The notes: generated by a model not told the origin, from the letters alone. DNA of 64,000 nt from Anaerolineales bacterium HSG25 (GCA_030377865.1 JAUCGA010000009.1:1-64000), one strand, 5' to 3'. Counted from the first letter of the stretch, positions 45,051 to 64,000 are shown. A program made the numbers and translations.

Positions 45051-45182
45051 TTCGGCAATAACTTATCATCGTATAAAAACTCAAATTCGAGGTCTGCGGA
45101 GTGCAAAAGCTTCTTGCTTTTGCCGGAGACAAACATGCAAAAGCAAGAAGCTTTTGCACTCCTTTATTGCCGAACAGCTCTA
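45051..45182. repeat. family D element overlapping a stop codon
   Basis: Ends TTCGGCAATAACTTATCATC and TTGCCGAACAGCTCTA. The final CTA (45180-45182) is the TAG stop of the Mrr-like gene on the minus strand. Confidence 0.85.
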
Positions 45183-46052
45183 CCTAACTGAACCCCCTTC
45201 GTCAACAGGTGTCAAACCTCGTTGAGTTGGTGTTTGCTTTATCCCCTCATCAATAGAACCACCACCCTCCTCCACAGGTTGACCTTCCGATCCCTCGTTG
45301 ACAGGCTTAGGTGTTGCCGTGGTGGGCTTGGCTGTGGCCGTCGCTGGAACCGAGGTGGCCGTTACTGGTGGTGTTTCAATTGGAATCGTGGTCTCGGTCG
45401 GCATTGGCTTTTCTGTTGGAGCAATCGTTGCCGTTACCTCGGTCTCTGTTTCAGATGAGAAGAATGGCAATCCGCTACTCATCAGTAAACTTATCCCTAC
45501 CAAACCCATAGCCAGTAGTATCGCCCCTCCAATCCAGTACCACACTCGGTTCGATTTGTTCGGCCCCTCAGTTACCCAATTGACTAAAATATATCCATCT
45601 ACTAGATGAATCGGCTTACCCTTAGCCCATTCCTGCGCTTGCTTAGTGACCGTGGCCGTTGTAACCAGATAGGCATCTGCGGCTTTGTTGTGTTGCATGG
45701 TGCCATATAAATCCCGAATTGTCGGCTGTCCGACACTGCCGCCGTATCGCTTGCACTGAATAACCGTCTTACGGAAATTTTTGGTTGCCAGTACGTCAAC
45801 TCCCTCATCACCAGAGGTGACGGTCAGGTGGGTTTTGTACCCTTTCCGTTCAAACAGAGCCGCGGTCAAATACTCAAACACTATCGGATCCATAGCCTTT
45901 AATTGGGCCAAGGCACGAGTCTTACTCAGGCGAGAGATCCGTTTTAGCTCGGCTTTGCCTTGTGCCCGTAACTTTTTATTGTACTGGTCGGCCTTCTTTT
46001 TTTTCTCTTGCGGGGTTAATTTTTTGGTGGGTGATGTTTTTCGTTTGGTCAT
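45180..46052 (-). CDS. membrane-anchored Mrr-like restriction endonuclease
   Basis: A 290-aa protein. Basic N-terminus, then an Mrr_cat domain (about 45-160): FEYLTAALFERKGY, SGDEGVDVLATKN, VIQCKRYGG and the later strand AYLVTTATVTKQAQEWA. These give the D...QxK active site. A transmembrane helix follows (about 170-192), then a Thr/Pro-rich exported tail (about 195-290). Mrr-type enzymes cut modified DNA; in this topology the nuclease faces the cytosol with a tether in the membrane. The terminal residues after GGSVR are set by the family D repeat. Confidence 0.85.
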   Translation of the reverse strand: MTKRKTSPTKKLTPQEKKKKADQYNKKLRAQGKAELKRISRLSKTRALAQLKAMDPIVFEYLTAALFERKGYKTHLTVTSGDEGVDVLATKNFRKTVIQCKRYGGSVGQPTIRDLYGTMQHNKAADAYLVTTATVTKQAQEWAKGKPIHLVDGYILVNWVTEGPNKSNRVWYWIGGAILLAMGLVGISLLMSSGLPFFSSETETEVTATIAPTEKPMPTETTIPIETPPVTATSVPATATAKPTTATPKPVNEGSEGQPVEEGGGSIDEGIKQTPTQRGLTPVDEGGSVR

Positions 46053-53700: not shown

Positions 53701-54814
53701 CATTGCTGGTACAGAAGTAACCTTTATTGAACAGCCTCAGTGTGTCTCAGATAGTAGCAGTAATTTGTGTGAAATGTATATTCGTTGGTATTTTGTACCC
53801 ACAAACACATCGACATCACGTCTATCATCAATGCAAACGACTAGCACTGCCCCAGCAGAAATACAGTGTAAAAGCACTAACAACCTGTCAGATGACTATC
53901 TGTTAGTTGACTATAATAATGAGAAGATAGTACCCGCTGGTGTCATCACTCAAGCAGGGGAATTGACAGTATGTGTGTGGGCTGATGATGGCAAAGAAAG
54001 TGACCTGATGGCAACAACAGCGACCGTGATCAAGGTAGGAACCTCTAATACAAAAACTTACTTACCAGCTATTAACCAAAATTATGCCAAACCAATATCA
54101 AGTATGCGTATTGAGCCCCCAAAGCACGATTTTGGGAAACAATCGGTGGGGGAAGCAACTGCACCGCAAAATTTTACCGTAGCCAGTACTGGCAAGATTG
54201 ACTTAAATATCACCAAGGTACAAAGTTCGTCGGACAGTTTTATTCCGACCCACAACTGTAATGAGCCCATACCACAAAATGAGAGTTGTCAGGTGACAGT
54301 AACGTTTACTCCCCCCACAAAAGGTGCCCATGCCGCGACCATTACGATTGAGAGTAATACGCCAAGTGGCGCACAAACAGTAGCGGTTTCCGGGGAAGGC
54401 TGGGCAGAGCCATGTACGGAGATTGAGGGATATGAGCCGAATAATGGAATGGGGCAAGCTTGCCCCATTCAGTTGGGGAAACCCATTAGGGCTTATCCAT
54501 ATGATGGGAATGTCCCCAATAAGGAGTATGATATTTATAAGTTTGAACTGAACAGTACTAGTTCAGTCAAAGTACATCTTAAAAACTATAAGGCTGTCGG
54601 TCATCTCTATGTCTATGATAAAAAAGGAGTCTGGATTGGGAAGCACCAACTTGGAGGTGATGAAAAAGAGATACCAAACGCTTCAAACCGTCATGCTCTA
54701 GAAGGTTTAGATCCAGGTTGGTACTATATTATGGTTCATACCAAGACATTTAATGGTGATGAACCTGCTTACGAACTGGAAGTTAGGCTTCGAGAATCTT
54801 TTGAACAACAATAA
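47759..54814 (+). CDS. giant secreted beta-helix / PKD / ASH / PPC protein
   Basis: A 2351-aa protein with a signal peptide (about 1-32) and strong AGGAGG site. Residues about 33-525 form a right-handed parallel beta-helix (repeated NNxxxGxGGGIY and IENNII strands). About 525-1330 is a run of PKD-like domains with WTFGDGKS, WDFGDGTI, WNFGDGRI. About 1435-2040 holds five or more 95-aa repeats with IRWY and W(C/Y/H)A(T/V)V-P-DG motifs. After KTYLPAINQN comes an ASPM/Hydin-like domain (about 2105-2210), then a PPC domain (GYEPNNGMGQA, about 2220-2351). No LPXTG or transmembrane anchor is seen. Likely an adhesin or sheath protein. Confidence 0.92.
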   Translation: MLRKKVVFSLALGLFSALSIFIILPQGTALAAGETCFSHIDDTREFTGTTAVQEAINVADENDLIKVAGNCTGGTMINGSTQTAYITESITIQGGYTNTNWNISEFATYPTTLTQIAGPVMVITGAGITPTIDSLIIREGQGGINVIDAEPILQNLVIEDNTDSGLTLNNADDTQVLTTTIQNNNALGDGGGVYIAESSDLLLQEVNILINTAGKNGGGLYVADTNSVNLTIRQTTINGNIATINNGALLIKGDGAILEDVTIENNLSQKSFTIRIESNNARLTRVKVLTNTATLHAGGLRFEGENAVLEYLTITGNTSNFQTDGGGIYLNDFNNGILRYSIIMDNKILLSSSAIEQGGGIFVASGNSYTIENNIIAHNKIGPNLQDRGAGLYLFGNKVKIHHNTIVSNSGGEGDALGVDGTEFDIKNNIFSNHTYSVYAWSGNNNAHVVDGNIVSNVSTPFYWVTPGSNNRIDCDPSFVNANGRDYHLDSSSCAIDHGSDVGVSTDIEGSSRPQGLKYDAGAYETGYTATVSVSLSDVPNAQVGQPVTFVATIYPTDAEVTYTWSADGFSTQNGNSAIYQWSTIGTKVVQVTVDDTPNPPVSAVTTIAIANTPKPIDFVTISGKEGGFAGRTYIYTATINTDAVGPVNYTWEPAPLSGQGDPVVTYRWTDPGLKDLTVTADNGFSRKTNNYPIEKIHEYPNAGFNADPPSFGGPAPLVITLTNPANHIDTHVEPEFIWEGDGITRVSYNTNTSIVLNYIPVGTHVVTHTVIKRLDNSDETASHRTTKVITVYEPALADMTATPLSATTTTTASFKLCDASSGEYDQLAWTFGDGKSEKTTTKHGCVDHIYTLPSSSKYQKTYTAKLEITGLGGTSVVSQVITIYRTLEAAFDMPVASPYVTTKQVCFTNQSNGHISSHWNLGGVETTTQASTFCHNFTEKRTYDIVLTVTGTNGNTKQKTESFTLYEPVQAKFDCIPENPRLNLEFITCTDQSTGDVAEWKWDFGDGTIIDKSSPEPVKHLYKSAGEYTIKLTITGDGQDQDSYENKGIVLPGPLEVDLVADEPTGSARKVTFTGIITEEYEKLEWDFDYDKCINLTEFAISNPTLTKTCFYNDTDSSPYTAVLTATGYGWVVTDSVEISVNEGVFARFEADPTTAIREPDSSVVVTFTNKSEGDYEKILVDYGDGITKTISGKPASFSHEYHQAGTYPVTFTISGPGGTMTTHPHDPDNPMIITIYDKCQPSFDYEIQSASSDQVAPVTLVVTNTTQGACEEATWNFGDGRISNQFNPGSHIYDISGIYPVKLTMSGDAGTETYVLDPPLEVFGSRCKFEDDKTVTLSPPQSNGDQDLTLTYPVMKKELKKPRSDVECYVDVQWYENRLKLGKGVGTIITATRQVTVGSHRLAPPTVWQARIMACHIEKGCNHESVLWSNEAIIQRRPNIPPEVLTATIVPSLPLTIEPLKVEYDTTDKDGDSVDTVTNWYKVTLEQYYQALINPADKDYGRPDIKDQENVPANETKLGDIWCAEILPHDGKDFGEIGEQCVRVGSDVNRPPTVMPHLSIIRDTDKLSGTLEAKFILEYEYYDDVGAVGEHTIRWYRKGDGFLPEYTRKCSPVSVDEGNNLNKGLYRCELSAETVDPGETWFAIIEPYDTQINGLPIKSNEVLVHAIKDNTPPEADEVKIIPFLVAKDDENLHIDYLYWDAEDDAESGSYIYWYETSTDPSNRVTLFDGARTIPHRFTLPNQIWYAVVIPGDGRALGDPDSAHTVLITNVVPLPSLNVSISPVNPSLTETIYLKGLPAVDENVTLSIMWTLNDGYQATLDGDDSIDAEHLEDGQVWCATVTVQKTNDENESNSVGPLCANVVAIKTNTLPELKGPPYIFPPTLNVGEQLFEVKYDYFDADGDLEGQTEIRWYNRGVVQPDYNDAKRIRVELQVGEVWHATVRPHDGKEYGAISTTVKVTVIAASTPPKVEPTPALSSPVIAGTEVTFIEQPQCVSDSSSNLCEMYIRWYFVPTNTSTSRLSSMQTTSTAPAEIQCKSTNNLSDDYLLVDYNNEKIVPAGVITQAGELTVCVWADDGKESDLMATTATVIKVGTSNTKTYLPAINQNYAKPISSMRIEPPKHDFGKQSVGEATAPQNFTVASTGKIDLNITKVQSSSDSFIPTHNCNEPIPQNESCQVTVTFTPPTKGAHAATITIESNTPSGAQTVAVSGEGWAEPCTEIEGYEPNNGMGQACPIQLGKPIRAYPYDGNVPNKEYDIYKFELNSTSSVKVHLKNYKAVGHLYVYDKKGVWIGKHQLGGDEKEIPNASNRHALEGLDPGWYYIMVHTKTFNGDEPAYELEVRLRESFEQQ

Positions 54815-54846
54815 GGTTTATCTTAGAGAATTATAACTAAATAGGA

Positions 54847-54903
54847 AATAGGTAAAACAAAAGAGGTGTGTTTTATTGACACACCTCTTTTGTTTTACCT
54901 ATT
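54847..54903. terminator. strong bidirectional terminator
   Basis: AATAGGTAAAACAAAAGAGG with its exact inverse around a TTTATTG loop: a 25-bp stem with A/T-rich flanks. It lies between the convergent giant gene and the 55250 gene, and the A/T runs on both sides suit termination both ways. Confidence 0.85.
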
Positions 54904-55005
54904 GGTTCTTAAACAAGATTTCGTTTACAAGTCAGATAGCACAGTAACAGTTTAAACAGGATAATTGAAATTTTCTATATATAGTAACGTACTCCTTAAT
55001 GGATT

Positions 55006-55076
55006 TAGGCAGAGGGAAAGAAATAATCATCCCAAGATTTTCCTACGAGGTATTGGGACAATTTTGTTACCCGACA
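55006..55076. repeat. repeat J, copy 2
   Basis: 71 bp matching 46825-46896 with few differences (core CCTACGAGGTATTGGGACA). The two copies are in direct orientation on either side of the giant gene. Confidence 0.85.
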
Positions 55077-55087
55077 AAGTGATGGTG

Positions 55088-55255
55088 ATATTATTTGGGT
55101 GTGACCAAAATGAGTTGGGATCTTCCTCAAGGCAATGAATAAGCGGATTTAGGAGATAAAACACGGCTAAAAACGATTGATTTTTACTCGATAGCGTGTT
55201 GTTATGAGGGTGCAAGATTGCCTTTCAACTAAGTTTGGTCACCCCCATATTATTT
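55088..55255. repeat. family H element with 9-bp target duplication over a stop codon
   Basis: Element 55097-55246 has ends GGGTGTGACCAAAATGAGTTG and CAACTAAGTTTGGTCACCCC. It is flanked by perfect 9-bp direct repeats ATATTATTT (55088-55096, 55247-55255). The right copy contains the TAA stop (55250-55252) of the adjacent minus-strand gene. Confidence 0.9.
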
Positions 55256-56878
55256 AGGCAGAGTAGGAACCGGCTCTACATTATCGCCATTCTTCTTTTC
55301 ATCATCACCACCGCTACTAGGACAAACACCCTTTACGGATTGTTGTTCAGAACTAAACACCTCAGTAATTTGTTGATTTCGACACAACTGTTCATGATCT
55401 AATTGGCTACATCGTAACACCCTAACACTCCAAAAATAACCAGATGTACCACATGAAAATTCTTTTAATTGGTCTATATTGATAACCGTTTTATATTCGT
55501 TGGCTTGAGGTGTTATATAGTGTTTTTTGTGATCAAATGCATCATGAACAGCCCGATACTTATCGTTATCCCACAAACCAATTTCAAAGGCTTGGTTTTC
55601 CGCCAACTGTCCATCCCATTGCCAACTAAATGTAGTAGCCCCTGTAAGGTTCTCATTTTCAGTAGGACTGAGTAGTGTTATTGGTGGATAGGTTGGAGTT
55701 AATGTTGGTGTTGGGGTATTAGTTGGTTTTGGGGTAAAGGTTGGCTCAGGTATATTTGTTGCTGTTAGGGTAGGTGTTAAGATTGTCACAGACTGAGTTA
55801 CTGAACCCGTGATATTCTTCTTCCGTCCGCTTACCATCACACTCACATCAGGTGTACCCGTTCCAATGTGGAAGACTGTTAAACAATCGTTAGGTTGTTC
55901 TACATTCTGCCAACGACATGAGAGATTTTCTGTAAGGATTGATGTTCCTTTTAAGTCAAAAGCCTCAACACTTAAAGGTATTGTCGTTTGGTTAGTCTTG
56001 GTTATTATGTATTGGGTTTGAGTAATTGGGATTAGGCTTCCATGTGCATACAAGTTTATAGTAGCGATAGTACGAGGAGTAGCAGTTGGTATGGGAGTCG
56101 GTGTAGGAGTCACAATTCTTACAGACTGAGTGACTGAACCTGTGATATTCTTATTCTGTCCACTTACCATCACGCTTACATCAGGTGTACCCGTTCCAAT
56201 TTGGAAGACTGTTAAACAATCGTTAGGTTGTTCTACATTCTGCCAAAGACATGAAAGATTTTTAGTAAGTATTGGCGTTCCTTTTAAGTCAAAAGCATCA
56301 ACATTTAAGGGAATCGTTGTCTGGTTAGTATTGGTTATTATGTATTGGGTTTGAGTAATTGGGATTAGGCTTCCATGTGCATACAAGTTCATAGTAGCGA
56401 TAGTACGAGGAGTAGCAGTTGGTGTAGGTGAGGGAGTGTGGGTACGGGATGATGTAGGTGAGGGAGTGAGGGTACGGGATGGTGTAGGTGTAAAAGTTGG
56501 AACTGCTATAGGAATAGTTACTGAGTCGGAATCAATTAATTGATTCCTATACCAACCAGTAACCGTAATAGTATAGGATGAGGTTACTTCTTTAGGAATT
56601 GTATGACTAAAAATGGCATCATATCCTTCTTCTTTATCTACAAAAATAGGTTCTCCTAAATCACTATCCCAAGTATACTCCAAATCCTCAAGTTCCTGTC
56701 CTGTAATAAGAAAGTCAATCGTATCGCTGGAATACAGTGCCTTATCTTGATGAGAGCCAAGAATTGTCAATTCAATTCTTTCCTGTGCTAATAGTTGGGT
56801 TTGAAACATTAAAAAAACTATACTTGCTAAAAATAAAATACCTGAATAAGCAATTTTTTGTTTAGGGATTTTCCTCAT
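55250..56878 (-). CDS. secreted protein with two tandem C-x-W...C modules
   Basis: A 542-aa protein with a signal peptide (about 1-31). A PKD/Ig-like domain (about 35-126, LEYTWDSDLGEPIF, SSYTITVTGWY) is followed by Thr/Pro linkers. Two near-identical 111-aa repeats come next (about 159-255 and 270-366): each has LYAHGSLIP, a VxAFDLKGT strand, NLSC-x-W...NDC (Cys210/Trp212/Cys221; Cys321/Trp323/Cys332) and DVSVMVSG. A Fn3-like C-terminal domain follows (about 375-515, with four or more cysteines), and a charged tail. The start overlaps the upstream gene by 17 bp. The repeat module recurs in the next three genes. Confidence 0.85.
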   Translation of the reverse strand: MRKIPKQKIAYSGILFLASIVFLMFQTQLLAQERIELTILGSHQDKALYSSDTIDFLITGQELEDLEYTWDSDLGEPIFVDKEEGYDAIFSHTIPKEVTSSYTITVTGWYRNQLIDSDSVTIPIAVPTFTPTPSRTLTPSPTSSRTHTPSPTPTATPRTIATMNLYAHGSLIPITQTQYIITNTNQTTIPLNVDAFDLKGTPILTKNLSCLWQNVEQPNDCLTVFQIGTGTPDVSVMVSGQNKNITGSVTQSVRIVTPTPTPIPTATPRTIATINLYAHGSLIPITQTQYIITKTNQTTIPLSVEAFDLKGTSILTENLSCRWQNVEQPNDCLTVFHIGTGTPDVSVMVSGRKKNITGSVTQSVTILTPTLTATNIPEPTFTPKPTNTPTPTLTPTYPPITLLSPTENENLTGATTFSWQWDGQLAENQAFEIGLWDNDKYRAVHDAFDHKKHYITPQANEYKTVINIDQLKEFSCGTSGYFWSVRVLRCSQLDHEQLCRNQQITEVFSSEQQSVKGVCPSSGGDDEKKNGDNVEPVPTLPK

Positions 56879-57524
56879 TGATTACATGCTCCTGATTGAT
56901 TATAGTAAGCGCTTCTGTAACCGAGCTAATAATCAAGTGTCCATCTTGACCTTCTACTTTGACTATTAACGTTTGGTAATCTAAGGCTTTATCAAGAGCA
57001 TAGTATATCTGACAATCACGACTCTGTCTAATTATTGACATAGCATTGGAGGTTTTGGGAAAGAATGACCAGTTACAGCTTAATTTATCATTAGGTATCA
57101 GTTGTTTCATTTCATTATACACCTTGATAGCAACTGAAATCTTTTGGTCAGGAGAGATGATTTTCGACGTTGTCATAACGGTTTGTTGATTTACAGCGAA
57201 CTCTACCATTCGTAGGACTTGAGGAGTTGAATTTACGACCTGTATATGACTTGAATCTACGAATAAAGGGATGCTTAATTGAGCAGTTGGTTGAATAGTT
57301 AAATCCGATATAGGCTTTTCCGCATCAATTCCTCGACTATATATTATAAAGAGCGTTAAAATGGCAATAACTAAACCACTGATAACAATCCACCACTTAA
57401 CTTTTTTTTGTTTTTTTGCTTGAACATGATAATCCACAAAGGAGTCATCATTTACAGATAATTTCTGTTTAATATCTATCTTGGCAGACTTAAAGTTTTT
57501 ATCGGAATAAAGTTGAGACATCAT
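56862..57524 (-). CDS. single-pass membrane protein with one C-x-W...C module
   Basis: A 220-aa protein: cytosolic N-terminus (1-41, charged), transmembrane helix (about 43-62), exported module (about 72-210) with ISVAIKVYNEMKQLIP, LSCNWSFFP (Cys150, Trp152), RDC (Cys171) and LIVKVEGQ. Type II topology. It has no Thr/Pro linker. It is the first gene of a two-gene operon with 55250, with an extended -10-like sequence upstream. Unknown function; likely partner of the secreted protein and of the kinase. Confidence 0.75.
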   Translation of the reverse strand: MMSQLYSDKNFKSAKIDIKQKLSVNDDSFVDYHVQAKKQKKVKWWIVISGLVIAILTLFIIYSRGIDAEKPISDLTIQPTAQLSIPLFVDSSHIQVVNSTPQVLRMVEFAVNQQTVMTTSKIISPDQKISVAIKVYNEMKQLIPNDKLSCNWSFFPKTSNAMSIIRQSRDCQIYYALDKALDYQTLIVKVEGQDGHLIISSVTEALTIINQEHVINEENP

Positions 57525-57693
57525 GAAAAAACTCCTTTTTTGAAGCCAAACGATTTAACTCTTTCAACATAATGGTTAATTCATTTAGCTCAATGCTATT
57601 TTTTTGATTATAAACGATTAAATTTTTCTTATACATTAATAGCTTATAAAGCTATTAAAACATCCAAATAATTTTTTTATCTATGTTAAGGTC

Positions 57694-57702
57694 AGTATAT
57701 CA
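57694..57702 (-). promoter_or_regulatory. possible extended -10 promoter for the 57524 operon
   Basis: Minus strand reads TGATATACT, a TGn-extended -10, about 170 nt before the start codon. No good -35 is seen, which extended -10 promoters can do without. Confidence 0.35.
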
Positions 57703-57834
57703 TACAATCGTTTCATGATAAATGGTGTTTTATCTCCTAATTATCTCCCTCTTTGAGGAGATACCATTGCTTGTCCAACTCCCTAAACTATAGTTTGTCT
57801 GTCGCAGAAACTGGACAAATTTGTAGTGGTTTCT

Positions 57835-57895
57835 AGACAAAAAAAACCTTAGCGTTCCACACAATTACATGGATGGGAATGCACCAAGGTTGTTA
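57835..57895 (-). terminator. terminator downstream of kinase operon
   Basis: On the minus strand AACCTTGGTGCATTCCC pairs imperfectly with GGAACGCTAAGGTT, followed by a run of eight T. It lies about 95 bp beyond the 57988 stop and separates the kinase operon from the 57524 operon. Confidence 0.7.
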
Positions 57896-57987
57896 TTATT
57901 TGGATACGCTATGAAATTTTTAAAGGACTTCATTGAAAATAGTATAGCACATTTGACAAAGAATAAATATGCGAAAATTGTACTGGT

Positions 57988-58758
57988 TTATTGAGTAGGG
58001 TTTAGCCGAATAGGGGCGGGATTTTTAGAAAAAACCGTTTCATTACCCTGAATGGCTAAAATTACTATAATCTCGGTAAGTTCGGATGGTAAGTTATCAC
58101 TATAATCAGCGGGTAATAGTTGACAGCTATCCTTATCCTTACTAGTCGTTTTTCCAAGCGGATAGATTGACCATGAACAGCTTAAGCTGGCTATGTCAAT
58201 TGTATTGTTGTCCATGTCAAAAACCTGCTCAACCACTATGGTTGTTGGTAGGTCAATGGTTAGGCTGATATCTTCATCAGCTAAGGTCACTGATGTATCA
58301 CCAACTTTGAGGTCTATTTGTTTAATTGAACGTGGTGTTGGGGTGATAGGAGTTGGAGTGTGTGTTGGGGATGGCGTAGAAATGACTGTCGGAGTGTCGG
58401 TTGGAGTAGATGTGACATCCACTACAGTGAATTGCAATGTGGCAACATCAGATATCTTACCCGTCTTAATATCTTCAACATGTACCCTAGCCACATAATC
58501 TCCTAATTCTTGCAATGTATGTGTTATCATTCTATTATCTGGCAATTCTTGACCGTTTACATCCCAGATATAAGCCAAATTACTTCCACTTGAAGCAACC
58601 GATAATCTCACTTTATCATACGAAAACTGTTGCTTGTTTATAAAGATAATCTTTGGTGTAGACTTTGTAAACAGGAAAAAATAATCCGAAATCAAAAAGA
58701 ACAGTACAAGAAGTAACAAGAATTTTATAATAAATCTCACATAACGTCGTGCAAGCAT
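57988..58758 (-). CDS. membrane-anchored protein with PKD-like and C-x-W...C modules
   Basis: A 256-aa protein: transmembrane anchor (about 9-30), PKD/Ig-like domain (about 35-113, LAYIWDVNGQELPDN, GDYVARVHVED), Thr/Pro linker (about 116-143), then a module (about 145-252) with SLSCSWSIYP (Cys194, Trp196), SC (Cys212) and IIVILAIQGN. It starts 2 nt after the kinase stop, and its GAGGAA ribosome-binding site lies in the end of the kinase gene, so the two are translationally coupled. Probably an extracytoplasmic partner or co-receptor for the kinase. Confidence 0.8.
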   Translation of the reverse strand: MLARRYVRFIIKFLLLLVLFFLISDYFFLFTKSTPKIIFINKQQFSYDKVRLSVASSGSNLAYIWDVNGQELPDNRMITHTLQELGDYVARVHVEDIKTGKISDVATLQFTVVDVTSTPTDTPTVISTPSPTHTPTPITPTPRSIKQIDLKVGDTSVTLADEDISLTIDLPTTIVVEQVFDMDNNTIDIASLSCSWSIYPLGKTTSKDKDSCQLLPADYSDNLPSELTEIIVILAIQGNETVFSKNPAPIRLNPTQ

Positions 58759-58760
58759 AT

Positions 58761-60890
58761 TTATTCCTCAATATAGATAGTAGCTTTTCCTTCATTATCA
58801 AAATCGAAAATTTCTTTACCCTTGACAACCACCTCTACCCACTGCTCAGTTTGACCTAAAGGTGGACTATACGTAAATTCACTACATCTGTTTTTTTCTC
58901 TGTTAGATGGTTGAAATATCCATTGGCATGTTATTTTGTTATCTAAAATTGAATATCCTATCTGATTTTCAACATCATATATTTTAAGTTTATCGCCTCT
59001 TTTAATAGTACTATTACCATCCGCTTCAATGCCATTTATAGTAATTTTTATATCATAAATTTCCTTGGTTACATTACGAAGACTATCAGTAACGTATGAA
59101 AAACTAAAGATTGCTACAAATATCAATGTAATAAGAACAGCTAGATTTGCTTTTTCAGGAAGTTCTATTTGAGCAGCTCTTAAAATTGCCTTTATAAGGT
59201 CATCTGACAACAAATCTAAATAAGTCAGCCATTTAAAACATTGCCACTGATAACCTTTACTCATTTCGTCAATTGATTGATAACGATTATTCGGATCATT
59301 TTCTAAACATTTCTTAATTATATTACGAAAAGGCCACCTTATTTCGTATATTTTCTCACTTGGTAATCTTCCTGTACAAAATTGATGAAGAATAATACCT
59401 GCTACGTAAATATCAGTACGTTTATCTAATTCTCCCTTATTTTTTTGCTCTGGTGCTTGATAACCTTTTGTACCAATTGAATAACAATCTTTGTTATTTC
59501 CAACATGTGCGAACCCTGTCAAGTAAAGATTATTTTTCTCAATTAGAATTGCCATAGGATTGAGGTTATGATGACAAATACCTTGCTCATGAGCATATTT
59601 TAGAGCCTTACAAAGTTGTTCAAAAAAATTTATAATCTTAACTTCATCAAGGTTGTCTCGGTGTTCGTTAAAAAAATTAGTTAAGTTACTACCATGAATA
59701 TAAAGCATAACTACATATGGTATCTCATACTCGACAATATTATATATCTCAAGACTATCTCTTACTGTCATTTTTTCAAAAGATTTTATCTCGACAATAT
59801 GATTGTTTTCACAATCAATCAATCCTTGACACTCAACTGCTCGTTCATAAAAATTGTGTTGTTTTCCTCTATGAGTAGTGAGTTTTATACAAACCTCACT
59901 ATCATCATCTATATTTTTAGCTTTCCATACTTGACCTGCTCCACCACTTGGTATTATTTCTATCAAACAGTACTCGCCACCTACAATATTACCTCTAAGT
60001 AATTCAACGTCAGCCTTACTTCCTTCCATGGCTTTTTTGAATGCATTTAGCAATGCCTCACATGTTTGATAGCGTTTACTAGGTTCCTCACTTAATGTTG
60101 TACGAATTACATCTTCAATTAGTTCTGAGGGCTCTAAAGATTGAGAACTAAATTCAAATCCTGTTTTTAGTAGATTACTACCTATTTTTGGTAGCTCACC
60201 ACCTACCATTTCATATAATATTAACCCCAATGAATAAATATCACTTCGTTTGTCGATTTTTAAGTTTTTATATTGCTCTGGAGACATATATTTCAATGTA
60301 CCGAGATTTTGGTCCGTATGAGTAAGTGAAGTAACATCAACCATCGTAGCTATGCCAAAATCGGTTAACAAATACTTATTTTTATTGTCAATCAAGATAT
60401 TGCTTGGTTTGATATCACGGTGAATTATTCCTTTTGAATGAGCATAATCTAAAGCACTTCCAATATGTTCAATGAATACATATATTTCTTGAAGAGAGAA
60501 TTGTCTCATACATTTCTCAAGTGATTTACCCTTAATGAATCTCATAGCAATATAAGTAAAATCTTTCCATTCACCATAGCCACGAAAACCAACAATGTGA
60601 GAGTGATCAAGTTTATCCAATATTTTAGCTTCTCGCTTAAATCGTTTAATAAACTGCTCATCTTTACTAAGAAGATGTGAGTGAATCATCTTGATAGCAA
60701 CATGTGTTTTTAGGTTTATATCTTCAGCTTTATAAACTGTAGCCATAGCACCTTGACCTACACTTCTGATAATTTTATATCTATTATCAATTTGTTGTCC
60801 GATGAAATCAGATCGTTGATTGATTGTTGAAACCGACTCTGTAGGAACATTATTTTGATTTGGAACAGTATCTTGATTATCAGGCAACAT
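58761..60890 (-). CDS. transmembrane tandem Ser/Thr kinase-pseudokinase with exported C-x-W...C domain
   Basis: A 709-aa protein. Kinase 1 (about 38-290) is complete: GQGAMATVYK, Lys67 in AIK, HRDIKPSN (157-164), DFG 177-179, SPE. Kinase 2 (about 305-545) keeps GGAGQVWK and Lys336 in CIK but HRD is HHN (440-442) and DFG is GFA (459-461), so it should be inactive. A transmembrane helix (about 582-600) leads to an exported domain (about 608-709) with KITCQWIFQP (Cys655, Trp657) and RC (Cys669), the same module as in the three genes downstream. First gene of the operon, GAGGT before ATG. Kinase 1 probably phosphorylates Ser/Thr on cytosolic targets; the pseudokinase may regulate it. Confidence 0.92.
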   Translation of the reverse strand: MLPDNQDTVPNQNNVPTESVSTINQRSDFIGQQIDNRYKIIRSVGQGAMATVYKAEDINLKTHVAIKMIHSHLLSKDEQFIKRFKREAKILDKLDHSHIVGFRGYGEWKDFTYIAMRFIKGKSLEKCMRQFSLQEIYVFIEHIGSALDYAHSKGIIHRDIKPSNILIDNKNKYLLTDFGIATMVDVTSLTHTDQNLGTLKYMSPEQYKNLKIDKRSDIYSLGLILYEMVGGELPKIGSNLLKTGFEFSSQSLEPSELIEDVIRTTLSEEPSKRYQTCEALLNAFKKAMEGSKADVELLRGNIVGGEYCLIEIIPSGGAGQVWKAKNIDDDSEVCIKLTTHRGKQHNFYERAVECQGLIDCENNHIVEIKSFEKMTVRDSLEIYNIVEYEIPYVVMLYIHGSNLTNFFNEHRDNLDEVKIINFFEQLCKALKYAHEQGICHHNLNPMAILIEKNNLYLTGFAHVGNNKDCYSIGTKGYQAPEQKNKGELDKRTDIYVAGIILHQFCTGRLPSEKIYEIRWPFRNIIKKCLENDPNNRYQSIDEMSKGYQWQCFKWLTYLDLLSDDLIKAILRAAQIELPEKANLAVLITLIFVAIFSFSYVTDSLRNVTKEIYDIKITINGIEADGNSTIKRGDKLKIYDVENQIGYSILDNKITCQWIFQPSNREKNRCSEFTYSPPLGQTEQWVEVVVKGKEIFDFDNEGKATIYIEE

Positions 60891-61030
60891 TTATTACCTC
60901 AACATTATTCAAAATTTTAGAATACTCTTTATTTTAGGGAAACTATAAAGATATCGACTATTGATATGAAGTTGTGAAACATTCCACAACCCTTCCATTT
61001 TAACACAAACTAATTTATTACACCAAAACG

Positions 61031-61249
61031 CTATCCATCCAACTCCAACTCATCCCGCATCAGTCTATCAAGAGACACATCAAAATAATCAGCAATCTTA
61101 ACCGCCAGTCTCGCCGAGGGTGATTTTTCACCCCATTCTATTCTAGAAAGATGGGTATGTCCAGAAAAGCCAAGTTCAGTAGATAAATTTCTCAGACTAA
61201 TCCCATGTCGTTCTCGTAAGATGCGTAATTTTTCTCCAAACCTATCCAT
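61031..61249 (-). CDS. XRE-family helix-turn-helix regulator
   Basis: A 72-aa protein composed of one Cro/C1-type HTH (about 7-62): LRILRERHGISLRNLSTELG, then SGHTHLSRIEWGEKSPS and VSLDRLMRDELE. Such small proteins bind operators as dimers. It is divergent from the 61371 gene, with a palindrome and promoter between them. Confidence 0.9.
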   Translation of the reverse strand: MDRFGEKLRILRERHGISLRNLSTELGFSGHTHLSRIEWGEKSPSARLAVKIADYFDVSLDRLMRDELELDG

Positions 61250-61279
61250 AGTTCAATAGCCTTTAAAATAAAAGTTTCC

Positions 61280-61318
61280 TAACCTGAGTTTGACATAGGT
61301 TATCTGTTGTGATAGAAT
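61280..61318 (+). promoter_or_regulatory. sigma70-type promoter with overlapping palindromic operator
   Basis: -35 TTGACA (61290-61295), 17-bp spacer, -10 TAGAAT (61313-61318). The palindrome TAACCT-N11-AGGTTA (61280-61302) covers the -35, an ideal place for repression by the adjacent XRE protein. The promoter itself is close to consensus. Confidence 0.75.
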
Positions 61319-61370
61319 GTACCCCTATAGAGTTACAAAAATAATTTACAAAGGAGGTTTGTTTCCCAAA

Positions 61371-61649
61371 ATGAGTACCGAAAAACCCACCAAACTGCTG
61401 GCTCAATGGAGCACAGCAGAACTCAAGGTCGAACGAGCCATCGGCCAGATATTGCAACATATCGTGGCCTTATATAACGAGCTTACGCAGGCGCATGCTC
61501 GTCGGCAGAGCATGCGGAACGAGATAAAACAACTCAAGCAGACGGTCAAAACCATGCAGGCTCAAATTGATGCTTTGGTCGATTTTACGGGCATGCCGCT
61601 CGACCATAAACCGAAACGGGGGCGAGGTCGGCCAAAGAATAGTGAATAG
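61371..61649 (+). CDS. small coiled-coil protein with C-terminal AT-hook-like motif
   Basis: A 92-aa protein; ATG 61371 (MSTEKPTKLLAQW) is used, though AAAGGAGG lies 13 nt upstream, a wide spacing; an in-frame TTG nearer the site is too close. Helical throughout (about 15-70) with heptad-like MRNEIKQLKQTVKTMQAQID. The C-terminus KPKRGRGRPK carries the RGRP core of an AT-hook, which binds A/T minor groove. Probably a nucleoid or DNA-associated protein; the family is not recognised. Confidence 0.6.
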   Translation: MSTEKPTKLLAQWSTAELKVERAIGQILQHIVALYNELTQAHARRQSMRNEIKQLKQTVKTMQAQIDALVDFTGMPLDHKPKRGRGRPKNSE

Positions 61650-61710
61650 TTGATAGTGAATAGTTGATAGTGAATAGTGGATAGTTGATAGTGAATAGTG
61701 GAAAATCATG
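61640..61710. repeat. AGTGAATAGT/TAGTTGATAGTGAATAG tandem repeats
   Basis: Short tandem repetition of GATAGTGAATAGT directly after the 61649 stop, with related repeats at 11783. Confidence 0.7.
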
Positions 61711-61834
61711 TCTTCACATATTCATGTTTTTACATTTATGTAAGGCGCAGGTTGTTACCCCTGCGTCTTATTATTTATAATAAGATTGAATCCCGATTTA
61801 GGCAACATTTGGGGATGATGATTTTAACATCAAG

Positions 61835-61991
61835 CGTTTGTCGTTTCATTCATGACCTGATGTATTGATAAAGTCAAAAGCATTTTTTGACAGGATCGAC
61901 AGGATTGACAGGATTTTTTCACTTGTAATCCTGTTTGTCCTGTTAATCCTGTCAGATATTGTTTTAATCATGTTGAAACGATAAACTTCTG
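61835..61991. repeat. family A element, copy 4
   Basis: Ends TTTGTCGTTTCATTCATG and CATGTTGAAACGATAAACTTC with AGGATTGACAGGATTTTTT arms. Both flanks begin TTAACAT, a probable target duplication. Confidence 0.85.
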
Positions 61992-62004
61992 TTAACATAT
62001 AACA

Positions 62005-62037
62005 AAAAAGAGGCTACCCATATCGGATAGCCTCTTT
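62005..62037. terminator. terminator-like hairpin
   Basis: AAAGAGGCTACC-CATATC-GGATAGCCTCTTT with A-run before and T-rich sequence after. The pairing includes one mismatch. No adjacent gene end explains it. Confidence 0.5.
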
Positions 62038-62067
62038 GGTTGTTCTCGTTCCAGCGGAATTTGTACG

Positions 62068-62219
62068 TTAGGCAGTTCCAAGAAAATAAACCTCCCAAAA
62101 CTTAGAACAGGATTCGCAGGAAGGCACTGATTTGAGGTGCTTTTATCAGTGCCTTCCTGCGAATCCTGTTCTTTGCCCTCAATGATTGTTGGGAGATTTT
62201 AAAAGTTGGAACTACCTTA
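62068..62219. repeat. family C element, copy 5, ending at a stop codon
   Basis: TTA-GGCAGTTCCAAGAAAATAA at the left and AAAAGTTGGAACTACC-TTA at the right around a GAACAGGATTCGCAGGAAGG hairpin. The right TTA (62217-62219) is the TAA stop of the small ORF 62217-62426. Confidence 0.85.
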
Positions 62220-62426
62220 CACCCGCGACTGCCTCTGTAACTGCTCAACAAAAGCACTATATTCTGATGAAGCCATGCCCTTTTGCAGAACTTGTATGAC
62301 AGTTTTCATATCACCAGCCCAAAAGGCGACTGCGTCAAGCCATAAGCCGGAAAAAATCACCCGTTCGATCTCCGGCTGAACCATAAATAGGTGTATTACA
62401 TCTGTTTTTAATGATTGTGGAATCAT
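62217..62426 (-). CDS. small hypothetical protein, possibly a gene remnant
   Basis: A 69-aa frame, MIPQSLKTDVIHLFMVQPEI and on, with balanced composition and a Trp/Ala-rich middle. I do not recognise it. It may be the broken end of a larger gene whose C-terminus was cut by the family C element, as the stop is exactly at the element border. No convincing ribosome-binding site. Confidence 0.35.
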   Translation of the reverse strand: MIPQSLKTDVIHLFMVQPEIERVIFSGLWLDAVAFWAGDMKTVIQVLQKGMASSEYSAFVEQLQRQSRV

Positions 62427-62459
62427 ATCCTATACTCAGCGACCAAGTTTCCTAATACT

Positions 62460-63031
62460 AATGGCGCGTCGGCTTCCTAGCCGACCCCGTTCAGCTAGTT
62501 GGCTAGGAAGCCGACGCTCCATTAATCAAACGCGCAACTTATGAAATTGTACTAAACTGGTGAGATTTTTTACCTTTCGGCATGTCATTCCCGCATGCTT
62601 TAGGCGGGAATCTAAGTGCTGTCGGTGGATTCCCGCTAAAAACGTGCGGGAATGACAATTTACAAGTTAGTACAACGTTAAATAAGTAAGGCGGGGTTTT
62701 AAGATAAGACCTCCAAGGAGAAAACCACACCTTGGAGGACGCGGAGTCGTTCTCCTCCGAGGTATGTAGTTTTCCTCGTTTGCCCGTTGGTAGTTCGGGG
62801 AGGTGTTGGCCGAAACCTCACAAGATTTAACTAACTTGTAAAAAATAAAAGTGTACCCATAATAGGCGGGTATATACCCGCCAAATACCCGTTGCGATTA
62901 CATAATCGCAACGATCAGGAAAACTTATTAAAAACAGGAGTGTCAAAATTGTATTTTGACAGCAAGAATGGAATTCTTGCACTCCGGGAAAAGTGACAAC
63001 TTAGAAATGAAAGTTACTTAATGCCCATTCC
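62460..63031. repeat. repeat stack, no gene
   Basis: A GGCGCGTCGGCTTCCTAGCC / GGCTAGGAAGCCGACGC palindrome (about 62463-62520); a GTCATTCCCGCATGC...GCGGGAATGAC palindrome (62584-62660); family G copy 2 (62668-62833); a GGCGGGTATATACCCGCC palindrome (about 62862-62880); and a GGAGTGTCAAAATTG...CTTGCACTCC family D core (62936-62987). Confidence 0.75.
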
Positions 63032-64000
63032 TTAATTCTCTAACGCGCCCAACACCAATGGCAGTAACTGCTTTTTCCGTGAGACAACCCCTTTTGCCTT
63101 GAGAGAACCATCAGCCAAATGAGGGAAGGGCAGTACATCTAGCCGGGGAACATCACCTGTTAGGATGATGCGGCTCGACCCCACGACCACATTGGTAGCC
63201 ATAAGTAGCACAAAATCTAACCCTTTGGCATCTCGCAACGTAATTAACGCCTTTTTTATGGTCTTTAACCGTTCTTCGAGTTGGGCATAGTTTGTGACCT
63301 CGATTTGAGAAACCCCAAATTTAAAACTACCCGCTTCATATAACTTAAAGTCAGCGCTAACAATATCATCCGGTTCACGCGAGGAGAGGTCTGCTCCGGC
63401 TTGCAAAATTTTGTTGCCGAACGATTCAAATGTCTCTCCATCTAATACTGAGCCACCAATAAAGGCCCAACGCGACAATCTATCTGCCGCTTGATGATCT
63501 CGTTCGGTCGTCGTCGGCGAGGTCAGCAGTAAGGTGTCAGAGATCAACCCCGCCATCAGCAATCCGGCCAACTGTGGCGGTGCGCTCAAGCCAGCCTCAT
63601 CAATTCGCTCCGAGACCAGAGTGGAGGTACTGCCGACGATGTCCACCGTAAATTTGATAGGCGCGTTGGTGGTTGGATTGCCCAAACGATGATGATCCAG
63701 AATCTCCAGTAAATCGGCCTCATCTAACGAGCCAAGCGCTTGCCCCGCTTCGTTATGATCGACCAACACCAGTTTGAGCCGTGGTGGATGGAGCGCATCC
63801 CGTTGGCGACAGATACCGACATAACTTTTATGTTTATCGATCACCCAAAACTCGGTTCGTTCCTCTTGTAAAATTCGGGGGAGCATGTCTTTGATACGGC
63901 TACTGTTCAAAAACTGTGGTACGGTAGTGTCGCAGGCCTCGCTACAGGGCTGGTCAAACAGTTCGGCCATGCGAGTCTCCTCTCGTCGTGGGTGGGAGCC
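63032..64000 (-). CDS. family II (Mn-dependent) inorganic pyrophosphatase, 5' end beyond window
   Basis: The visible part is 322 codons and remains open at the window edge; the ATG at 63970 is probably internal. Visible: LVDHNE, LEILDHHRLG (the DHH motif), VGSTSTLVSE, AGLISDTLLLTSPTTTERD and a C-terminal DHHA2-like domain ending SRKKQLLPLVL. The segment before LVDHNE (about residues 1-75 of the visible frame) resembles the end of the CBS/DRTGG insert found in regulated members. The enzyme hydrolyses pyrophosphate in the cytosol using Mn or Co. The N-terminal catalytic part is expected outside the window. Confidence 0.88.
   Translation of the reverse strand, partial: GSHPRREETRMAELFDQPCSEACDTTVPQFLNSSRIKDMLPRILQEERTEFWVIDKHKSYVGICRQRDALHPPRLKLVLVDHNEAGQALGSLDEADLLEILDHHRLGNPTTNAPIKFTVDIVGSTSTLVSERIDEAGLSAPPQLAGLLMAGLISDTLLLTSPTTTERDHQAADRLSRWAFIGGSVLDGETFESFGNKILQAGADLSSREPDDIVSADFKLYEAGSFKFGVSQIEVTNYAQLEERLKTIKKALITLRDAKGLDFVLLMATNVVVGSSRIILTGDVPRLDVLPFPHLADGSLKAKGVVSRKKQLLPLVLGALEN

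Follow-up and report, generated by a model that had tools for sequence, protein, structure and literature searches.

The four genes described here lie in a 64,000-nucleotide stretch of the genome of Anaerolineales bacterium HSG25 (GCA_030377865.1, JAUCGA010000009.1:1-64000), which we refer to as the window. We call them K, B, C and D in the order in which they are read on the minus strand (Table 1). K encodes a membrane Ser/Thr kinase, B its predicted exported partner, C a short membrane protein and D the predicted exported partner of C, and all four products share an outer module with a C-x-W...C pattern. An earlier note, made from the sequence alone, had given the coordinates of the four genes and the numbering of the module's Cys and Trp residues correctly. 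Below we present evidence that K-B and C-D may be two adjacent copies of one two-gene transmembrane signalling cassette.

Table 1. Features of the K-B and C-D gene pairs; positions are counted from the first letter of the window.
Feature	Position	Strand	Remarks
K, membrane Ser/Thr kinase with degenerate second kinase domain, one transmembrane helix and C-terminal module	58761..60890	(-)	709 aa
K kinase domain 1, residues 38-280	60051..60779	(-)	catalytic motifs intact: VAIK, HRDIKPSN, DFG
K kinase-fold domain 2, about residues 303-548	59247..59984	(-)	degenerate
K transmembrane helix, residues 577-595	59106..59162	(-)	hydropathy
K module, Cys655-x-Trp657...Cys669	58767..59072	(-)	profile, left-out hidden Markov model (HMM), AlphaFold2, Foldseek
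B, exported partner of K	57988..58758	(-)	256 aa; begins 2 bp past K; layout predicted from sequence: N-terminal signal anchor, PKD domain, Thr/Pro linker, module
B PKD domain, about residues 32-112	58423..58665	(-)	PF00801, 24.0 bits (cut-off 23.5)
B module, Cys194-x-Trp196...Cys212	57994..58338	(-)	profile, left-out HMM
AT-rich gap between the K-B and C-D pairs	57525..57987	(-)	463 bp
C, short type II membrane protein, transmembrane segment 41-66, outer module	56862..57524	(-)	220 aa
C module, Cys150-x-Trp152...Cys171	56889..57227	(-)	profile, left-out HMM, AlphaFold2, Foldseek
D, exported partner of C	55250..56878	(-)	542 aa; 17-bp overlap with C; signal peptide, weak PKD-like domain, Thr/Pro linkers, two modules, receptor-type tip domain
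D module 1, Cys210-x-Trp212...Cys221	56102..56413	(-)	profile, left-out HMM
D module 2, Cys321-x-Trp323...Cys332	55769..56080	(-)	profile
D tip domain	55328..55681	(-)	no Pfam family; profile A9

The module spans about 100 residues and occurs once each in K, B and C and twice in D. HMMs were trained without the module or modules of the gene under test, and were then scored on the real module and on 20,000 shuffles of it. Real scores were 29 bits (B), 26 bits (K), 43 bits (C) and 21 bits (D, with both copies left out), and the modules of two relatives scored 46 and 25 bits. The best of the 20,000 shuffles gave 14-17 bits, and no shuffle reached the real score. Because every real module scored above all of its shuffles, the modules are homologous rather than just similar in layout, and the proposal that one domain family runs through all four products was borne out. 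The two modules of D, which are 90% identical in DNA over 305 nt, are a recent tandem duplication.

A profile built from the five modules revealed one further member in the window's 5-Mb genome, on contig C120. There, a 185-aa protein with a transmembrane helix and a module is followed by an overlapping lipoprotein gene whose product has a PKD-like domain, a Thr/Pro linker and a D-type tip; judged by sequence, this pair is a paralogue of C-D. Three more units were found in two genomes of another genus, G007 and G011 (Anaerolineales bacterium isolate H5_CFX7). Contig C4 of G011 (JABTUW010000003.1) encodes a 1082-aa protein with a kinase domain, a repeat region, a second kinase-fold domain, a transmembrane helix and the module, and a 444-aa exported PKD-linker protein is encoded 10 bp downstream. 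On contig C3 of G011, an EAD7-like domain, TPR repeats, a transmembrane helix and the module are followed 91 bp downstream by a 486-aa lipoprotein partner. Contig C5 of G007 carries a kinase with transmembrane helix and module, and a 244-aa lipoprotein partner 20 bp downstream. The N-lobe of this last kinase lies in a different frame (L067:8709-10000), which indicates a frameshift, either in the gene itself or in the assembly.

The six units thus have one layout: a variable cytoplasmic part, a transmembrane helix and the module on the first protein, followed by a predicted exported protein with a PKD-like domain, a Thr/Pro linker and a variable tip. The partner gene overlaps that of the membrane protein or starts within 91 bp of it, and the exported PKD-linker protein directly follows the module-bearing membrane protein in all six units, so that this pairing is the feature conserved across loci. 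Cytoplasmic parts range from kinase plus pseudokinase (two loci) through a single kinase and the EAD7-like domain with TPR repeats to almost nothing. When the downstream neighbours of about 30 further kinases of the window's genome were screened, no such partner was detected. The use of the module by a membrane kinase and its neighbours was borne out, and kinases in other genomes of the family have it too (G011 C4 and G007 C5); the association with a giant PKD gene, which the earlier note had also pointed out, was not seen at the other cassette loci. Only in the window was the module detected in partners as well (once in B, twice in D), and profile searches did not detect it in the partners of the four units outside.

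Outside the bacterial family, a sample of 396 genomes of the class gave only weak module matches, of which one is possibly real: a multi-transmembrane protein of genome G309 (contig C4, L055:5403-6077) has a C-x-W...C segment scoring 17.7 bits, against 11.0 bits for its best shuffle. It may be a distant member from another family of the class, and was not counted as a unit because it crosses the membrane several times and has no exported partner. Weak profile matches with internal stops or very short frames were taken as chance. Scans of genome contigs and viral contigs with the C-terminal part of K returned no relative. Within the sensitivity of the profiles, the module family is all but limited to two genera, both of the same family.

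The two cysteines of the module had been read as a disulphide pair. B and C have Cys only in this pair, and the same is true of the part of K beyond its transmembrane helix. In the modules of G011 C3 and G007 C5 both positions are Tyr, and other Cys are present in the ectodomains of these proteins. Joint loss in two relatives fits a disulphide, and we infer one from the paired presence and paired loss of the residues.

None of the nine members of the module family matched Pfam beyond chance, B, C and D had no match in NCBIfam, and no credible PDB chain was found by sequence (the best match, an RNA-binding protein at E 0.004, was judged spurious); the module matched no described family in these searches. 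AlphaFold2 models were built on a six-row alignment. The model of the C module had a predicted local distance difference test score (pLDDT) of 87 and a predicted TM-score (pTM) of 0.78, and the K module, modelled with moderate confidence (pLDDT 72, pTM 0.65), showed the same main strand order. Foldseek matched the C module to Ig (immunoglobulin), cadherin and Rib domains, and the K module to FN3 and PKD domains and to domains of hybrid two-component sensors. The probability of these matches was near 1, yet E values were above 1e-3 and TM-scores about 0.5, so that nothing finer than the fold class is fixed. As modelled, this class is the ordinary Ig/FN3/PKD-like two-sheet beta-sandwich. Unrelated folds, or membership of different known families, would have spoken against a shared domain, and the predicted Ig-like folds of K and C gave neither.

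K matched the Pfam family Pkinase at 1.1e-73, in two stretches. Domain 1 retains the VAIK Lys, the HRD Asp and the DFG Asp by which active Ser/Thr kinases are recognised, and is predicted to be active. In domain 2, HHNLNPMA replaces HRDxKPxN, GFA replaces DFG and the activation segment is short, although the VAIK Lys is retained. With the HRD and DFG Asp both lost within a kinase fold, domain 2 classifies as a predicted pseudokinase. In a tree of 33 kinase domains, K domain 2 and its counterpart in the G011 kinase clustered with support of 98/93, and both have a short activation segment and a catalytic loop of the NP type. We also considered whether K and the G011 kinase had exchanged kinase domain 1, on which the tree gave no decision. 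Elsewhere in the window's genome, a further tandem kinase (contig C89, L078:4111-7071) has HRDxKPxN intact in both domains, and three more kinases have altered catalytic loops: HGNLYPNN, HGNISPKN and HCDINPNN (L096, L098 and L101, on contigs C93, C31 and C94).

The earlier note had placed a PKD-like domain in two of the proteins. For B this was upheld by the Pfam match. The N-terminal domain of D did not reach the PF00801 cut-off, and its resemblance to the PKD-like domains of other partners is weak, with 2 of 5000 shuffles reaching its score. The family of the D tip was present in 11 of 12 genomes of the bacterial family, and we read the tip-domain architectures of fifteen matching loci (including L118, L119, L121-L124 and L127-L129). 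At these loci the D-type tip is the terminal ectodomain of five kinases, and it takes the same place in AAA_35-TPR proteins, in another ATPase-type transmembrane protein, in a TCAD9 protein and in a PP2C protein. Such covalent tips stand after a transmembrane helix and usually a Thr/Pro linker. A model built from covalent-tip proteins alone recovered D (E about 4e-15) and the C120 partner (3e-20) in a set of 20,000. That is, D and its C120 paralogue appear to bear in trans what ordinary receptors of the lineage bear in cis.

Other searches for partner-like proteins gave matches of a different kind. A search of relatives with B alone returned mostly matches to the Thr/Pro linker, the best of which (L002-L004) proved on reading to be unrelated genes. 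PKD-type matches at L068:1715-2917, L112:2934-4100 and L113:3078-4259 were set aside, as they belong to a separate PKD-TPR lipoprotein encoded beside a class A penicillin-binding protein and conserved in three genomes of the family. A lone 69-aa fragment in the window's genome (L114:4090-4299; contig C8, 12095-12241) is very similar to the PKD domain of the G007 and G011 partners, and is the remnant of a cassette that has been lost or broken.

The reading we favour, to which we assign a probability of about one half, is a split receptor in which the exported partner senses, the module docks, the degenerate kinase domain transmits and kinase domain 1 acts. The first gene of the cassette would supply a membrane protein with a cytoplasmic part, one transmembrane helix and one outer Ig-like module. 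The second would supply an exported, often lipid-anchored protein with a PKD-like domain, an extended Thr/Pro linker and a variable tip. The partner would be the sensing half, its tip contacting a ligand or a component of the envelope, and its inner folded domains would dock on the membrane protein's module. In K-B, docking would alter the arrangement of the kinase pair: the degenerate membrane-proximal domain would transmit, and the active N-terminal kinase would be the output. C has a short cytoplasmic part and would probably be an accessory subunit that keeps D close to K. Our main reason for preferring a split receptor is that D and the C120 partner present in trans a tip that is found in cis elsewhere. 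The pairing seen at six of six units, the homology of the modules, the range of cytoplasmic parts that go with one module and the clustering of the degenerate kinase domains of K and G011 also speak for it.

Several observations weigh against this reading. The gene pairing bears on it indirectly. B and the three G007 and G011 partners do not have the D-type tip, so only D and its C120 paralogue carry the argument from tips in trans. The membrane proteins of the C-D and C120 units carry no kinase, and the second kinase-fold domain of the G011 kinase retains the HxD and DFG Asp. In addition, the degenerate domains of K and G011 form long branches in the tree, and approximately unbiased (AU) tests allow other arrangements. 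Finally, only three genomes, all from one family, supplied the six units, which are therefore not fully independent.

An alternative that we consider unlikely is that the modules are passive juxtamembrane stalks and that the paired genes encode co-regulated surface proteins without forming a receptor. The ordinary Ig-like sandwich predicted for the module would suit such a role, as would the Thr/Pro linkers and PKD domains, which are common parts of stalks, and the recent tandem duplication of the module in D. Spacers, however, leave unexplained why a partner follows at six units and after none of the about 30 kinases screened, and why the module is single and chain-terminal in K, C and their relatives.

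Homotypic assembly, raised in the earlier note, in which binding between modules joins K, B, C and D in one complex at the cell surface, is decidedly unlikely. Ig- and cadherin-type sandwiches often self-bind, and in the window every one of the four products has the module, D even twice. At the other four units, however, the module was detected in the membrane protein and in no partner, so binding of like with like between membrane protein and partner is not a conserved principle, and docking of unlike domains on each other is no less likely. Dimerisation of the membrane proteins through the module is possible.

The cluster could also belong to a network of the effector-associated-domain (EAD) type that serves in conflict or cell death, its outer part sensing an invader or damage. 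Kinase domains are mostly reported inactive in one class of EAD-type systems (PMC7159879). An EAD7-like N-terminus occurs on one cassette protein (G011 C3, 21.7 bits, below cut-off), and the G011 kinase has an EAD7-like gene some 3 kb upstream. The G007 cassette has TIR-AAA_35 and AAA_35-kinase genes nearby, AAA_35 genes are also present close to C120 and within the window, and the cluster is low in GC (guanine plus cytosine). We regard this reading as very improbable, since the EAD7 scores are sub-threshold, no EAD model matched K, B, C or D, receptors of the AAA_35 kind are common in this family in any case, and K scored below the cut-off for the anti-phage kinase MADS6 (NF047741, 248 bits against 460, on the generic kinase region), its PD-T4-6 matches likewise falling on the generic kinase domain.

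We return to the split receptor to note a broader form of it, which is possible but doubtful. In this modular architecture, the Ig-like module may act as a docking module that couples interchangeable cytoplasmic outputs (kinase plus pseudokinase, kinase, or EAD-TPR) to exported sensors that are likewise interchangeable and encoded by the adjacent gene; in the kinase version, the membrane-proximal pseudokinase would be the conserved transmitter.

Around the two gene pairs, the gap between K-B and C-D ends in an AGGAG-type ribosome-binding site before C and contains a promoter-like match (57721-57694) of a class that is not above chance. K (0.317) and C (0.344) have the lowest GC content among 30 window genes compared (window 0.441), which suggests acquisition or fast evolution. 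No Rfam family was found within positions 54000-64000. A perfect 20-bp inverted repeat (54852-54898) lies between D and the convergent giant PKD gene and would suit a shared terminator. Further off, positions 45180-46052 encode a protein with an Mrr-type restriction endonuclease domain (PF04471, 1.2e-31), which also matched a model of a NACHT-associated inactive endonuclease. Near the C120 pair (L027:8320-17796) lie genes for a CARDB-repeat protein, an AAA_35 ATPase and a 1437-aa surface protein in which a caspase/C13-type protease domain seems present by eye.

The cassette kinases belong among the membrane Ser/Thr receptor kinases, a known kind. Their sensing half is apparently encoded as a separate exported protein, which bears on what bacterial receptor kinases sense. 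In part, this separate half has the tip domain that other kinases of the lineage bear covalently, and ligand binding, docking and activation could be tested with separate pieces. The locus also offers one receptor chain that combines an active kinase with a predicted pseudokinase, as well as two domain families (module and tip) that are missing from Pfam. Absence of such a system from the open-licence literature is weak evidence of novelty.

Among known systems, the PASTA kinases (PknB/PrkC/StkP) resemble K in having an N-terminal cytoplasmic PknB-type kinase, one transmembrane segment and an outer domain. Their family NF033483 was the best NCBIfam match of K, at 377 bits and under the cut-off of 450. 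Unlike them, K has no PASTA repeats detectable with Pfam, and has instead a degenerate second kinase domain, an Ig-like module and an exported partner gene. Bacterial transmembrane pseudokinases are known from the MviN, EssB/YukC and ActPs families (PMC12599244), in which, as in K domain 2, a degenerate kinase domain is followed by a transmembrane segment; in K, by contrast, a single chain has an active kinase first, then the predicted pseudokinase and then an Ig-like ectodomain. The text of that review contains none of the words tandem, extracellular and Chloroflex. The hybrid two-component sensors BT4663 and BT3049 have, like K, an Ig-like sandwich in the outer sensor region (Foldseek), a resemblance of fold only (TM-score about 0.5) within a different protein architecture.

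A functional precedent is the GlnH-GlnX-PknG relay of Actinobacteria, in which an exported lipoprotein controls a Ser/Thr kinase across the membrane (PMC9769921). If docking occurs as proposed, the cassette would work in a similar way, by analogy of function: GlnH is a solute-binding protein, GlnX has four transmembrane segments and PknG is not a transmembrane receptor, and homology of the outer parts is not indicated. A further comparison comes from the same lineage, in the kinases with a covalent linker and tip (among them L118, L121-L123 and L127), which also have the kinase across the membrane from the tip. These differ from K-B in being a single chain, with no module reaching the search threshold and no degenerate second kinase domain detected, and they share with the cassette the tip family of D and the same type of Thr/Pro linker.

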